Shown here: positions 29,830 to 61,526 of the stretch, piece after piece
Layout: every line of letters starts with the position of its first letter
Position numbering within the stretch: the stretch's first letter is position 1
From: Mycolicibacterium monacense
Lineage (GTDB): Bacteria > Actinomycetota > Actinomycetes > Mycobacteriales > Mycobacteriaceae
DNA length: 64,000 bases
Direction: 5' to 3'
Assembly: GCF_010731575.1 (NCBI RefSeq)
Contig: NZ_AP022617.1
Span: 186,001-250,000 of the forward strand
Position numbers and translations under genes: made by a program
Notes under the pieces: model-generated
Told to the model about the DNA's origin: nothing
The model's input: the letters and a program-made list of their open reading frames with translations, nothing else
The model's database searches: none

Positions 29830-29843
29830 CAGCCCTCTAGGGA

Positions 29844-29870
29844 AGCCCGGCACCGGTGGTGCCGGGCTTT
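29844..29870 (+). terminator. Intrinsic terminator after BI-1 gene
   Basis: AGCCCGGCACC and GGTGCCGGGCT are perfect 11-nt arms around GGT, followed by TTTCT. It starts 15 nt after the stop codon and is the most canonical terminator in the window. Confidence 0.88.
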
Positions 29871-29883
29871 CTGCTATTGCATG

Positions 29884-29948
29884 GCGTTGACTTTGCGCCT
29901 ACGGCGTTCGCCACCCGCACTTTCGCGCCTCCAGCGCAGAGTCGACGC
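29884..29948. repeat. Left palindromic repeat flanking the DUF559 gene
   Basis: Arms GCGTTGACTTTGCGC and GCGCAGAGTCGACGC pair along all 15 positions if two G-U pairs are allowed. They enclose a 35-nt centre with CGGCGTTCGCCACCCGCAC. The right-hand copy at 30885-30945 has the same arm and centre sequence (TTCGCCACTCGCAC), so the two are direct copies of one element around the gene. Confidence 0.75.
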
Positions 29949-30043
29949 GGGGCGGTATGCACAGTGCGCGATTCGTCCACATGCCGAGCTGTGGGCTGTG
30001 AAACGACGAACGGCGCGTCGGCGGCCGTCACGACACTTCGGCC

Positions 30044-30889
30044 ATGGACGATCTGCCCTTCATCGGATCCGAGGCGTTGGCGGATGGACGGCTCACTCGG
30101 TACGAGCTTCGCCGCTACCACCGGGCGATCATGCCGGACGTCTACGTCGATCGGCGGGCGGAGCCGTCGCTGCGTCAACGCACGGTGTCGGCATGGTTGT
30201 GGACGCGGCGCGAAGGTGTCGTCGCGGGACTGCCAGCTGCCGCGCTGCATGGCGCGAAATGGATCGACGACGACGTCCCGGTCGAGTTGATCTGGCGAAA
30301 TGCACGAACCCCACCGGGCGTCGTCACCCGCGCGGACGCACTTCTCGACGGCGAGGTTGCGACACTCGACGGTCTGCCGGTCACGACTGCCGATCGCACC
30401 GCATTCGACCTCGGCCGGCGGGGTCCGCTCACCGCGGCAGTGGCCCGGCTCGACGCCTTGATCCGGGCGACCGATGTCGGGGTCGGCGACATCGAGGCGC
30501 TCGCCGCAGCGCATCCCCATACGCGGGGCCTGCGCCAGTTGGAGAAGGCGCTCGATCTCGTGGACGTCGGCGCCGAATCGCCGAAGGAGACGTGGTTACG
30601 CCTGCTGTTGATCCGCCACGACTTTCCACGCCCGCGAACCCAGATCCCGGTCCCTGCCCCCGACGGCCACACCACCTACTACCTCGACATGGGTTGGGAA
30701 GACCTCGAGTTGGCCGTCGAGTATGACGGTGACCACCACCGGACGACGAAGGACCGTTTCGCCTACGAGATCCAGCGTGCAGAGGACATCGCGGCGGCGG
30801 GTTGGCACGTCGTCAGGGTGGCGGCGCGCAGCCGGGAAGCCGACGTGATCCGCCGCGTGACCCGCGCTTGGCGGCTACGCACCAGTTGA
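30044..30889 (+). CDS. AbiEi-like/DUF559 (Vsr-fold endonuclease-like) protein
   Basis: Protein of 281 residues. The N-terminal part resembles the winged-helix and linker of AbiEi-type proteins (RLTRYELRRYHRAIMPDVYV, LPAAALHGAKWI). From about residue 178 there is a DUF559 domain of the Vsr/PD-(D/E)XK nuclease fold: E179/E182 in GAESPKETWLR, D215 in YYLDMG, and E226/D228/D230 in AVEYDGDHHR. The acidic residues expected of a nuclease are therefore present. No partner gene lies beside it. Two long palindromic repeats bracket it, and its stop codon is inside the right one. It occupies the place of Rv1073 in the otherwise conserved order, so it is probably an acquired or mobile unit. Confidence 0.75.
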   Translation: MDDLPFIGSEALADGRLTRYELRRYHRAIMPDVYVDRRAEPSLRQRTVSAWLWTRREGVVAGLPAAALHGAKWIDDDVPVELIWRNARTPPGVVTRADALLDGEVATLDGLPVTTADRTAFDLGRRGPLTAAVARLDALIRATDVGVGDIEALAAAHPHTRGLRQLEKALDLVDVGAESPKETWLRLLLIRHDFPRPRTQIPVPAPDGHTTYYLDMGWEDLELAVEYDGDHHRTTKDRFAYEIQRAEDIAAAGWHVVRVAARSREADVIRRVTRAWRLRTS

Positions 30890-30945
30890 CTCTGCGCTGA
30901 CGGCATTCGCCACTCGCACGTTTGCGCCGTGAGCGCAGAGTCAAC
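30885..30945. repeat. Right palindromic repeat flanking the DUF559 gene
   Basis: Perfect 14-nt arms GTTGACTCTGCGCT and AGCGCAGAGTCAAC. Inside them, ACGGC and GCCGT extend the hairpin. The copy overlaps the stop codon of the DUF559 gene and ends 9 nt before the fadA3 stop. It matches the left copy in arms and centre. Confidence 0.8.
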
Positions 30946-30953
30946 GAAAAGGG

Positions 30954-44419: not shown

Positions 44420-44779
44420 ATGGCCGTCGACCCCAAAGCCCTGGTTCAGCGTTACCTCGACACCGTCGCCTCCGGCACCGCCGACGATGTCGCCGCGCTG
44501 TACGCCGAGGACGCCACGCTGGAGGACCCCGTCGGCGGAGGCGAGGTGCACATCGGACGGCACGCGATCGCCGGCTTCTACAAGAACACGGACGGCGTCG
44601 AGATCAGCACCGAACTGCTGACGATCCGCGTCGGCGGTAACGAGGCCGCGTTCCTGTTCGCGATCACCGTCGGCGGCGCCATGCGCATCGAACCGATCGA
44701 GATCATGACGTTCAACCATGACGGGCAGATCGCCTCGATGAAGGCCTACTGGGGTCCGGACGACGTCACCCAGCTGTGA
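44420..44779 (+). CDS. SnoaL-like/ketosteroid isomerase-type protein
   Basis: A 119-residue NTF2-fold protein. LVQRYLDTVASGTADDVAALYAEDATLEDPVG gives the usual tyrosine and acidic pair (shown here as separate motifs YLDTV and DATLEDPVG), and ends MKAYWGPDDVTQL. It resembles delta-5-3-ketosteroid isomerase, which shifts a double bond in steroids. Substrate unproven. It lies 10 nt after the DUF255 gene and its stop is inside the hairpin. Confidence 0.72.
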   Translation: MAVDPKALVQRYLDTVASGTADDVAALYAEDATLEDPVGGGEVHIGRHAIAGFYKNTDGVEISTELLTIRVGGNEAAFLFAITVGGAMRIEPIEIMTFNHDGQIASMKAYWGPDDVTQL

Positions 44780-44826
44780 TTTCGGCGTGCTGGGTCGCGC
44801 TGGGCGCGACCGCGCACGCCGAAATC
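44778..44826. terminator. Long hairpin, GATTTCGGCGTG family, copy 1
   Basis: Outer arms GATTTCGGCGTGC and GCACGCCGAAATC (13 nt, perfect), then inner arms GGTCGCGC and GCGCGACC around a TGG loop. It overlaps the stop codon of the KSI-like gene and ends 2 nt before the stop of the convergent hemolysin gene. Probable bidirectional terminator, and one of three related copies. Confidence 0.75.
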
Positions 44827-48786: not shown

Positions 48787-48844
48787 CGAGCAGACACAAA
48801 TGTCCCCGACACGCCGAGCTGTCGGGGACATTTGCGTCTGCTCG
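48787..48844. terminator. Long hairpin between membrane protein and coaA
   Basis: 24-nt arms, positions 48787-48810 and 48821-48844, pair except for one A-C mismatch, with a 10-nt loop. The arms contain ATGTCCCCGAC and GTCGGGGACAT. It lies between two convergent genes and should end both transcripts. It is unrelated in sequence to the GATTTCGGCGTG family. Confidence 0.75.
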
Positions 48845-51108: not shown

Positions 51109-51171
51109 CGCCGAGTGTGCGATTTCATCCGCGACACGCGGGGTGGGGCGTATCAGTTCGCACACTCGGCG
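51109..51171. terminator. Long palindrome between the DUF885 gene and glyA
   Basis: Arms CGCCGAGTGTGCGA and TCGCACACTCGGCG (14 nt, perfect) enclose a second hairpin CCGCG-aca-CGCGG. It starts 4 nt after the DUF885 stop and 53 nt before glyA. Likely terminator, or a repeat element. Confidence 0.65.
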
Positions 51172-53654: not shown

Positions 53655-53789
53655 ATGGCTAGCGAATTGCTCTGCTGTCCGGGCGGTACCCGATCGTTGC
53701 GATCACGAGAGGGCCGGCCCCGGCCCTGGTGCCGCAGTGTCCGCCGACAGGTTCGCGGGGGACCCGCGGATACCAGGAGCGCTACGTGA
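53655..53789 (+). CDS. phoAT: PhoAT, small antitoxin-like partner of PhoH2
   Basis: A 44-residue Arg-rich frame from ATG 53655: [16 protein letters not shown] and on, ending at TGA 53787-53789. The stop overlaps the phoH2 GTG as GTGA. In mycobacteria, phoAT is an often-unannotated gene upstream of phoH2, proposed to act with it as a toxin-antitoxin-like pair. The short size, overlap and ELLCCPGGT start fit it. TAGCGT (53641-53646) lies 8 nt before the ATG, so a leaderless start is possible. Confidence 0.7.
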
Positions 53790-55099
53790 CCGATTCGCCT
53801 CTCCGGACCTACGTGCTCGACACCTCCGTATTGCTGTCCGATCCCTGGGCAACAACGCGGTTCGCCGAGCACGAGGTGGTCGTCCCGCTGGTGGTCATCA
53901 GTGAATTGGAAGCCAAACGGCACCACCACGAGTTGGGCTGGTTCGCCCGGCAGGCGTTGCGCCTGTTCGACGACCTCCGCCTCGAACACGGTCGCCTCGA
54001 TCAGCCGATACCCGTTGGCTCCGAAGGCGGGACGCTGCACGTCGAGCTGAACCACAGCGACCCGTCGGTGCTGCCCGCCGGCTTCCGGAACGACAGCAAT
54101 GACGCCCGGATCCTCACCGTCGCAGCGAATCTCGCCGCCGAGGGGAAATGCGTCACGCTGGTCAGCAAGGACATCCCGCTGCGCGTCAAGGCCGGTGCCG
54201 TCGGGCTGACCGCCGACGAGTACCACGCCCAGGACGTCGTGGTGTCCGGCTGGACCGGCATGGACGAGATCGACGTGACGACCGACGAGGTCGACGCGCT
54301 GTTCGCCGACGGTGAGATCGATCTGGCCGCGGCGCGGGATCTGCCGTGCCACACCGGCGTTCGGCTGTTGGGCGGTAGCTCGCACGCACTCGGGCGGGTC
54401 AACGCCGCCAAGCGCGTGCAGTTGGTGCGGGGTGATCGCGAAGTGTTCGGCCTCCGGGGAAGGTCCGCCGAACAACGCGTCGCCCTCGACCTGCTGCAGG
54501 ACGAATCGGTGGGCATCGTCTCACTCGGCGGTAAGGCGGGCACCGGTAAATCGGCGCTGGCGCTGTGCGCGGGCCTCGAGGCGGTGCTCGAGCGGCGCAC
54601 CCAGCGCAAGGTGGTGGTGTTCCGCCCGCTCTACGCCGTCGGCGGACAGGATCTGGGCTACCTGCCGGGCAGCGAGAGCGACAAGATGGGTCCGTGGGCG
54701 CAAGCCGTCTTCGACACCCTCGAAGGGCTGGCCAGCCCCGCGGTGCTCGAAGAGGTGCTCGCGCGCGGAATGCTCGAAGTGTTGCCGCTCACCCACATTC
54801 GCGGTCGCTCGCTGCACGATTCGTTCGTGATCGTCGACGAGGCGCAGTCGCTGGAGCGCAACGTCCTGTTGACGGTGCTGTCCCGCCTGGGCGCCGGTTC
54901 GCGGGTGGTGCTCACCCACGACGTCGCCCAGCGCGACAACCTGCGGGTCGGGCGTCACGACGGCGTGGCGGCGGTGATCGAGAAGCTCAAGGGCCACCCG
55001 CTGTTCGCCCACATCACCCTGCAGCGCAGCGAACGCTCGCCGATCGCCGCACTGGTCACCGAGATGCTCGAGGAGATCAGCCCCGGCGCGCTGCCGTGA
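53786..55099 (+). CDS. phoH2: PhoH2: PIN-domain RNase plus PhoH ATPase
   Basis: Protein of 437 residues, near Rv1095 (433). An N-terminal PIN ribonuclease domain begins [13 protein letters not shown] (D12), with further acidic residues in [12 protein letters not shown]. The PhoH ATPase follows: Walker A in [15 protein letters not shown] and Walker [13 protein letters not shown]. It unwinds and cuts RNA. Start GTG 53786 overlaps the phoAT stop, so synthesis is coupled. A 25-bp palindrome ends the transcript. Confidence 0.93.
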
Positions 55100-55103
55100 C
55101 GTG

Positions 55104-55156
55104 GTGATTTCGGCGTGGTTGGTCGCGCCCAGCGCGACCAACCACGCCGAAATCAC
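55104..55156. terminator. Long hairpin, GATTTCGGCGTG family, copy 2
   Basis: Perfect 25-nt arms (55104-55128 and 55132-55156) around CCA, 4 nt after the phoH2 stop. The outer sequence GTGATTTCGGCGTG and the inner GGTCGCGC are shared with copies at 44778 and 61478. It lies between tandem genes and is directly followed by the DosR-type box. Confidence 0.8.
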
Positions 55157-60402: not shown

Positions 60403-61479
60403 ATGTCCACACGCCTCGTGATCACCGGAGCCAGCGGAAACGTCGGAACCGCCCTGCTGCAGCGGCTCGCCGATGCCGGGGGCTACACCGTCACCGGGGT
60501 GACCCGCCGCAAGCCTCCCGAGTCCGGCATCTACCGCTCCGCGCAGTGGCGTCAGCTCGACCTGGCCGAACACGACGCCACCACCAGGCTGCAGGCCGTG
60601 ATGGGCGACGCCGACGCCGTCGTCCACCTCGCCTGGGGGTTCCAGCCGACCCGCAACGTGCAGTACCTCGACGCCGTCGGTGTCGGGGGCACCCGGGCGG
60701 TGCTGCGCGCCGCCGACGTCGCCGGCGTCGGCCAGCTGGTGCACATGTCGTCGGTGGGCACCTATGCCGCCGGGCGCTACGGGCAGTACGTCGACGAGAC
60801 CTGGTCGACCGCGGGTATCGACACCTCGCCCTACAGCCGCGCGAAGTCCGCCGCCGAGGCGCTGCTCGACGACTACGAGCGCAGCCACCGCGACGGTCTG
60901 ACGATCGCGCGGATGCGGCCCGGGTTCATCGTGCAGCGCAGCGCCGCAGGGGGTTTGCGTCGTTACACGCTGCCCGCGTTCATCGAGCCGCGGTGGCTGC
61001 GGTTCCTGCCGGTGCTTCCGCTCGACCGCGGCCTGGTCGTGCCGATCATCCACGCCGACGACGTCGCCGACGCGATTGCCCGGACCGTCGAGCGCCGCGC
61101 TGCGGGACCGTTCAACCTGATGGCCGAACCCCCGGTGCGCCGTGACGATCTCGCCGAGGCCCTCGGTGCGTATCCGGTGCACGTGCCGTCGAGTCTGCTG
61201 CGTCCGGCGGTGGCGCTGTCGTGGCGGGCGCGGCTGCAACCGATGGACGAGGGTTGGCTGGACATGGCGTTCAGCGTGCCGTTGCTCGACACCGGCCGCG
61301 CGCAGTCGGAGCTCGGCTGGAAGCCGGTCCGCACGTCGATCGAAGCCCTCGTCGACATGGGCGAGGGGTTCAAGAACTGCGCCGACACCGAGAGCCCGGT
61401 GCTGTCCTACCGGGGCCCGCTGACCAGCGTGCTGCGGGATCTGCGCGCCGGCCCGATCACCGACCGCAAAGTCCCGTGA
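60403..61479 (+). CDS. NAD-dependent epimerase/dehydratase
   Basis: Short-chain dehydrogenase of the extended type, 358 residues. N-terminal Rossmann motif VITGASGNVGTALLQRL, a Ser-Ser in HMSSVGTYAAG, and YSRAKSAAE as the Tyr-x3-Lys site. Substrate is likely a nucleotide sugar or lipid-like compound, not determinable here. Start ATG 60403. The stop lies in the following hairpin. Confidence 0.8.
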   Translation: MSTRLVITGASGNVGTALLQRLADAGGYTVTGVTRRKPPESGIYRSAQWRQLDLAEHDATTRLQAVMGDADAVVHLAWGFQPTRNVQYLDAVGVGGTRAVLRAADVAGVGQLVHMSSVGTYAAGRYGQYVDETWSTAGIDTSPYSRAKSAAEALLDDYERSHRDGLTIARMRPGFIVQRSAAGGLRRYTLPAFIEPRWLRFLPVLPLDRGLVVPIIHADDVADAIARTVERRAAGPFNLMAEPPVRRDDLAEALGAYPVHVPSSLLRPAVALSWRARLQPMDEGWLDMAFSVPLLDTGRAQSELGWKPVRTSIEALVDMGEGFKNCADTESPVLSYRGPLTSVLRDLRAGPITDRKVP

Positions 61480-61526
61480 TTTCGGCGTGCGCAGTCGCGT
61501 CCAGCGCGACCGCGCACGCCGAAATC
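61478..61526. terminator. Long hairpin, GATTTCGGCGTG family, copy 3
   Basis: 15-nt perfect outer arms (GATTTCGGCGTGCGC and its complement) and a nearly perfect inner stem around GTCGCG and CGCGAC. It joins the stops of the convergent epimerase and fumC genes (61479 and 61528). Same sequence family as copies at 44778 and 55104. Confidence 0.75.

Follow-up and report, generated by a model that had tools for sequence, protein, structure and literature searches.

A mycobacterial AbiEi-EDxHD nuclease gene and the palindromes that may be its dedicated sites

A gene for a predicted nuclease of Mycolicibacterium monacense lies between two long, related palindromes, and the question raised by this locus is whether the protein acts on the repeats that bracket it. 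The gene is part of a stretch of 64,000 nt (the window; NZ_AP022617.1, positions 186,001-250,000, assembly GCF_010731575.1), and the genome is referred to as G000. A sequence-only reading of the window had proposed that the nuclease is paired with palindromes of its own in the manner of RAYT-REP systems. The core of this proposal is supported by the private pairing of gene and repeat, by co-variation with the protein, by copies elsewhere in the genome, and by the co-occurrence of gene and palindrome.

The gene and the palindromes around it

The locus consists of an 846-nt gene that sits between two copies of a 62-nt repeat, which are 82% identical and 999 nt apart (Table 1). As the sequence-only reading had described, both copies are long palindromes of one family with common arms and TTCGCCAC/CGCAC centres, one before the gene and one over its stop codon, with the TGA inside the right copy. 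The start codon follows the end of the left palindrome after 96 nt. The right palindrome is strong, with 20-nt arms that are 95% complementary (folding z -5.7), and the left one is weaker (folding z -2.5). The arms read GTTGACTC and GATTTCGG and carry no GTAG at the foot. As a pair the two copies score 34.5, and random points of the same geometry in the window reached a score of 18 in 2 of 383 cases. A hairpin at about 29843-29869 is placed outside the unit because the close relative G002 has it too and lacks the nuclease gene there. The neighbors of the nuclease gene are a Bax-inhibitor-1-like gene and a thiolase gene, one to each side; the slot would correspond to that of Rv1073.

Table 1. 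Features of the nuclease locus and solo palindromes in the window (window coordinates)
Feature	Position	Strand	Remarks
Left flanking palindrome, GTTGACTTTGCGCC ... CAGCGCAGAGTCGACG type	29886-29947	+	Family D1; fold; matched pair
AbiEi-DUF559/EDxHD nuclease gene, 281 aa	30044-30889	+	
Residues 1-174, AbiEi-like winged helix and AbiEi C-terminal-like domain	30044-30565	+	Predicted DNA reader
Residues 15-25 (GRLTRYELRRY)	30086-30118	+	Helix 19-25; co-varies with repeat type
Residues 83-97 (IWRNARTPPGVVTRA)	30290-30334	+	Loop joining strands 80-83 and 93-96; co-varies with repeat type
Residues 175-281, Vsr/EDxHD nuclease domain (fold match)	30566-30886	+	Conserved E182, D215, E226, H232, D242
Right flanking palindrome	30885-30946	+	TGA 30887-30889 inside is the stop codon of the gene
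Solo palindrome, L026 family (L026 = G000:C1:4948568-4949419)	44778-44826	.	Overlaps stop codon of left gene; absent in G011 and G009
Solo palindrome resembling L025 family	48787-48844	.	By eye; arm AGCAGACxCAAATGTCCCCG
Solo palindrome resembling L019 family	51109-51171	.	By eye
Solo palindrome, L026 family	55104-55156	.	Just after stop codon of ORF 53729-55099; collapsed remnant in G002
Solo palindrome, L026 family	61478-61526	.	Overlaps stop codon, between convergent genes

Judged by its modeled fold, the protein joins two parts: residues 1-174 are an AbiEi-type DNA reader, and residues 175-281 an EDxHD/Vsr-type nuclease. The fold matches, to AbiEi and to I-Bth0305I/Vsr (EDxHD), are clear, and with its conserved residues the domain agrees with the Vsr-type DUF559 nuclease that had been claimed, though both Pfam matches score below gathering. 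These two, MTES_1575 (E 6.6e-6) and DUF559 (E 0.0024), were the sole matches of a Pfam scan up to E 1, which gave no Y1 HUH (Transposase_17) match. PADLOC returned weak AbiEi matches, and NCBIfam no useful match among 6 proteins.

G000 carries 13 homologues, the window gene included, and every one of the 98 mycobacterial genomes searched has at least one (1 to 15 each). Across the class, a homologue at E up to 1e-10 was found in 166 of 296 genomes and 74 of 114 genera; plasmid records (7 in 72,556) and phage records (1 in 50,697) are nearly devoid of them. At four loci (G042:C30, G095:C18, G095:C46, and L173) the nuclease gene matches in two reading frames and is probably broken, a hint that loss may not be rare. 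A further observation concerns a TCCACA box, often TTCATCCACAG, that was searched for in the 200 nt before the start codon. It occurs there on the gene strand in 76 of 188 loci and on the other strand in 40, at a median of -69, with downstream counts of 9 and 4. The window copy lies at 29976-29981, and we take the box to resemble a DnaA box.

Private repeats and the protein segments that follow them

The link between gene and repeat shows in the pairing of the two sides. In G000, 12 of the 13 homologues have the same repeat on their upstream and downstream sides, and this repeat differs from gene to gene. In nine mycobacterial genomes, 49 of 67 genes have matched sides at score 18 (the 67 are those fetched, 4 to 13 per genome and not always every homologue), compared with none of 482 mismatched pairs, in which the upstream side of one gene was set against the downstream side of another from the same genome. 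The 18 genes that have no pair at this threshold count against the best explanation, and one of the 49 matched pairs, L210, turned out to be an insertion-sequence artefact.

Score 18 was reached in 123 of 189 loci with enough flank; of these, 83 have a direct and 40 an inverted best shared segment, as palindromes would give. Since repeats are shared among related genes, shuffled cross-species pairs matched often too (78 of 658 at score 20), a problem that the within-genome control avoids. Loci were not turned to the gene strand for the random-geometry control, the [CT]GAnnnTGC count, and the arm sequences, by which the pairing is little affected. The fixed arm formula [CT]GAnnnTGC was rejected as a family rule, being present on both sides in 47 of 140 loci only.

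The bracketing rule is strong in mycobacteria and patchy outside. Relatives with flanking repeats are also present in other actinobacterial families, and 5 of 19 non-mycobacterial loci (L221, L227, L229, L276, and L278) reached score 18 against 118 of the 170 others. Some of the outside loci have a different architecture. L221 is flanked by arrays of a 21-nt half-site, with 3.9 copies upstream and 4.5 copies downstream in reverse complement, and L229 by 26-nt arrays of 5.8 and 6.8 copies in inverted orientation. L227 and the subthreshold L228 have 57-58-nt palindromes on both sides, and at L225 repeats of the GTGATCTTG type stand at a greater distance from the gene.

Repeat similarity rises with protein identity (Spearman 0.49, 131 loci). 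A repeat is shared at score 18 by none of 3385 locus pairs below 45% identity, by 298 of 603 at 60-70%, and by all 34 above 80%. Overall identity was then removed, and 11-residue windows were compared over pairs at 40-72% identity with 100 bootstraps. The residual signal lies in residues 11-31 and 83-105, with peaks of 0.19 (window 15) and 0.20 (window 87), and a lower signal of 0.12 is seen at residues 43-57. The lower bootstrap bound exceeds 0.05 for windows that begin at 11-21, 43-47, and 83-95; of the 100 bootstraps, 65 had the start of their best window at 87 or 89 and 31 at 15. The nuclease part gave a mean of -0.02 and a best window of 0.06. In the structure model, residues 19-25 form a helix in the winged-helix region, and residues 84-92 a loop between two strands. 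Beyond protein relatedness, the repeat type tracks segments of the DNA-reading half, most strongly residues 15-25 and 83-97, and not the nuclease. With modest correlations and loci of common descent, the location is well supported and individual residues are less so. Sequence-specific recognition of each palindrome by its own protein is, on these comparisons, very probable.

The anatomy of the sites fits a protein that binds in pairs. The sites measure 49-61 bp overall. The 49-bp sites of the L026 family consist of two inverted 23-bp half-sites around approximately 3 bp, and each half-site has a 12-nt outer box, three freer bases, and an inner box. PMC7319586 describes AbiEi as binding two 23-bp inverted repeats 3 bp apart, and the pairs of Rv2827c as standing 13 bp apart. 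Window-family palindromes span about 57-61 bp, close to the target of nearly 60 bp on which I-Bth0305I dimerizes according to PMC3943268.

A competing explanation treats the palindromes as RNA or DNA hairpins, such as terminators or mRNA stabilizers, that are useful at gene ends independently of the nuclease. The placement of the palindromes at gene ends suits hairpins, and so does inner-stem covariation in the window family, where columns 15-41 are Watson-Crick paired in 87 of 88 palindromes (43 expected) and covariation is also seen within G022 and G078. In G073, however, none of 11 window-family tests reached P 0.05, and a single one of the 48 column-pair tests of the L026 family did so (12 in each of four genomes), many L026 columns being nearly invariant. 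The L026 copies compared were 13 of 35 in G000, 20 of 45 in G081 (19 distinct), all 16 in G085, and all 10 in G019; the most variable column pair, 20-30 in G081, was paired in 8 of 19 against 9.9 expected. Set against the covariation in the window family, the results for L026 and G073 disfavor the hairpin as the selected object. The repeats are moreover private to each nuclease and co-vary with its DNA-reading half, and the flanking repeats of L221 and L229 are tandem arrays and not hairpins. Useful hairpins are consequently a very unlikely explanation. The little covariation between L026 halves favors two protein half-sites over a selected hairpin, and the palindrome symmetry is read mainly as that of two such half-sites, though less surely in the window family, which shows covariation in G022 and G078. 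Rfam gave one chance-level match, which is irrelevant.

Copies away from the gene and the history of the slots

Copies of the palindromes are also found away from the genes. Counts were made with exact arms, for the window type as GACTCTGCG, 28-50 nt, and CGCAGAGTC, and include the copies that flank genes. Window-type palindromes are present in 35 of 98 mycobacterial genomes, with up to 15 copies, and the reversed pattern in none of the 98. Of the 36 genomes with a close homologue (E up to 1e-100), 29 have palindromes (143 copies), and of the 62 without one, 6 do (11 copies). This raw count overstates the link since the flanking copies of the gene itself are included. When two copies are discounted per gene-bearing genome, 17 of 36 genomes (92 copies) stand against the same 6 of 62 (P 4e-5), and three other cut-offs gave P 2e-4 to 2e-3, in statistics that ignore phylogeny. 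There are counter-cases in both directions: G020 has four window-type copies and no close gene, and in G006, G042, G052, and G095 a close gene is present without any exact window-type copy.

The L026 family gives a marginal result. Before discounting, its palindrome is present in 18 of the 40 genomes with the gene (180 copies) and in 5 of the 58 without (35 copies); with two copies discounted per gene, 10 of 40 (139 copies) remain against 5 of 58, at P 0.04 with phylogeny ignored. The 22 of 40 genomes that have an L026-type gene and lack the exact-arm palindrome are counted against the link, and copies are present without a matching gene in G008 (16, in a genome 70% complete) and G054 (14). 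G000 itself has 35 L026-type copies, of which two lie beside the L026 gene, 33 away from it, and three in the window. Genomes that have any exact-arm copy of the two counted families carry 1-45, flanking ones included. The co-occurrence that the sequence-only reading had predicted is supported, less strongly after flanking copies are discounted, and the repeats did not prove to be spread everywhere without regard to DUF559 genes.

The dispersed copies prefer the ends of genes. Among 22 palindromes with context, the two of the window gene included, 19 lie within 25 nt of a gene 3' end, and 8 provide the abutting gene with its stop codon through their own TGA, according to heuristic gene calls. 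The outer arms contain TGA, so a palindrome at a gene end can supply the stop codon; the eight cases are 30887-30889, 44777, and 61477 in the window and L297, L298, and L300-L302.

This placement bears on a second alternative, autoregulation, in which the protein would be an AbiEi-like repressor with a nuclease domain, the flanking palindromes its operators, and the dispersed copies its regulon. Such a role has precedent, as AbiEi and Rv2827c autoregulate through inverted repeats (PMC7319586), and 123 of 189 loci have one copy no more than 300 nt upstream of the gene. A matching copy is, however, found downstream too, few of the palindromes are promoter-like given their position at gene 3' ends and the stop codons they supply, and a repressor leaves the conserved nuclease residues unexplained. 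Autoregulation is therefore considered unlikely.

The slot between the Bax-inhibitor and thiolase genes was followed through the 30 loci that scored best among the 95 genomes with a match. A homologue fills 23 of them (one in two frames), five have none, and two could not be assigned. The sequence-only reading had the nuclease gene replace Rv1073 in a conserved gene order, which is too strong, as the same slot is filled by a homologue in these 23 loci, the window included. The 13 filled loci that were compared carry differing palindromes. Empty sites had been expected to lack both gene and palindrome, and among the five gene-less loci this holds for one. A second has a half-site-like remnant, two retain a single window-type palindrome, and one has palindromic sequence of other types. 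In G065 (L157 and L210), extra sequence follows the Bax-inhibitor gene at the slot, and a nuclease gene comes about 2 kb further on, between inverted copies of about 370 nt that are probably an insertion sequence.

Gene and neighbor may not always share one history. Between G095 and G000, the last 300 nt of the Bax-inhibitor gene are 98% identical and the nuclease genes 72% (670 nt aligned); between G028 and G000, the values are 83% and 76%. The discordance is best read as allele exchange at a fixed slot, which these alignments suggest, and fast divergence is an alternative. At the L017 slot, the flanks align at 91-92% in G002 while the whole cassette and its palindromes differ, and the cassette differs in G095 too. 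The L019 slot looks variable as well, with the same neighbors around 1.1-3.9 kb of other sequence in G095, G042, G054, G019, G011, and G040.

The L026 slot was read with G054 and G019 left out. It holds palindrome, gene, and palindrome in G000 and G011, a single palindrome in G095 and G040, neither in G002, and 585 nt of other sequence in G042; G013 aligns end to end. Compared with G002, the ends of the insert are the outer edges of the palindromes, and no target-site duplication is visible by eye at this junction against the empty site of G002, where the flanks differ at 2-4 of 45 bases. In relatives, the five solo sites of the window show absence or a collapsed remnant (Table 1) or, at 51109 in G042 and G040, palindromes of other types. 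The remnant, L424 of G002, is a short palindrome, GTGATTTCGGTGCCGAAATCGC, that looks collapsed by loss of its middle, and that genome has no L026-type match at E 1e-60.

L026-like copies are 82-100% identical within a genome (6 pairs) and 65-78% identical at the same site across genomes (12 pairs), in a hand-picked set; further copies outside this set are 84-94% identical to others of their own genome. Concerted evolution would produce such a pattern, with greater likeness within a genome than between genomes at one site.

For 10 of the 13 G000 paralogues, the slot is common to at least one of three relatives, so the gain of new slots looks rare or slow. The common slots also suit a reading in which shared ancestry is all there is, and old resident repeats were copied with the gene in the absence of a functional link. 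This is the least probable account of all: matched and mismatched pairs separate inside single genomes (49 of 67 against 0 of 482), and the signal is confined to segments of the DNA-reading half.

A role in defense or addiction was also weighed, in which a restriction-like nuclease would be kept by selection against foreign DNA and its flanking sites would serve as decoys, self marks, or a switch. The weak PADLOC matches to AbiEi point this way, and the diversification of specificity and the allele differences at single loci recall restriction systems. The two neighbors of the window gene are, however, neither methyltransferase nor toxin, and the chromosome itself is rich in sites of one family, which makes a defense role highly improbable.

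A possible mechanism and its relation to known systems

The reading that is somewhat favored takes the palindromes as dedicated binding sites of the bracketed protein, and gene and palindromes together as a selfish REP-like unit. A dimer would read two inverted half-sites, probably with the helix at residues 15-25 and the loop at 83-97, a step for which the indications are strong; reading through these two segments would give each paralogue its private site. The nuclease would then nick or cut at cognate palindromes, and recombinational repair could lead to three outcomes. Repair from another copy would spread and homogenize the palindromes, repair between two palindromes would delete the gene and leave a solo palindrome, and whole cassettes could be exchanged at a fixed locus. 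Spread driven by the nuclease in this way, with cutting at the palindrome followed by copying, deletion, or exchange, is given slightly less than an even chance. Further points that weigh against the favored reading are the apparent rarity of new slots, the patchy rule outside mycobacteria, the near absence of homologues from plasmids and phages, and junctions at which no target-site duplication was seen. A wider proposal is made a little more tentatively still: the palindromes may form a mobile class built on a homing-type nuclease, in which AbiEi-EDxHD proteins with private 49-61 bp sites replace the transposase, copy and homogenize the palindromes by cut and repair, and carry or shed their own gene.

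Among known systems, REP-RAYT comes closest in layout. PMC3733652 describes a gene flanked by its own palindromes, several families per genome with an enzyme each, and solo copies near gene 3' ends. The window system likewise has cognate palindromes on both sides, several families with a separate enzyme for each, and copies elsewhere in the genome, the solo ones mostly near gene 3' ends. It differs in the enzyme, which is an AbiEi-EDxHD/Vsr nuclease here and an IS200/IS605-like Y1 HUH tyrosine transposase in RAYT, in palindromes that have no GTAG tag, and in copy number, with 1-45 exact-arm copies per genome having any in the two families counted.

The EDxHD homing endonuclease I-Bth0305I shares the predicted EDxHD/Vsr-like catalytic fold. 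No intron or intein is seen here, however, and an intact palindrome stands on each side of the gene, so that the target is uninterrupted if the palindrome is the target; the cassette differences at one locus would be compatible with site-specific homing. AbiE type IV toxin-antitoxin systems resemble the L026-type sites in their paired inverted 23-bp half-sites and the protein in its two-domain DNA reader (winged helix and C-terminal domain). They differ in that the window gene, the locus that was checked, has no neighboring AbiEii (DUF1814) toxin gene, that a nuclease domain is fused to the reader, and that sites lie on both sides and dispersed. Vsr, DUF559, and MTES_1575 endonucleases belong to the same catalytic domain family, and a private palindrome is not a known part of Vsr.

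Since it has neither a HUH transposase nor a GTAG tag, its target is not interrupted, and the locus holds no AbiE pair, the system is provisionally rated as one of its own kind that would work like REP-RAYT; by layout alone, it would be a variant of REP-RAYT. In the open literature, the scope of which excludes most subscription-journal papers, no description of DUF559/AbiEi genes with palindromes was found. Stem-loop families of M. tuberculosis, Myt-1 among them, are listed in PMC2267715.

These observations link a large, functionally dark protein family to repeats that are scattered through the same genomes. They name the protein segments that may set specificity and provide dozens of natural enzyme-site pairs with a directly testable code. 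They also offer a possible cause of gene swapping at the level of the locus and may point to a second way of making REP-like elements, one with unrelated chemistry. If the nucleases cut, the natural pairs with their long private sites would be useful as rare-cutting tools.
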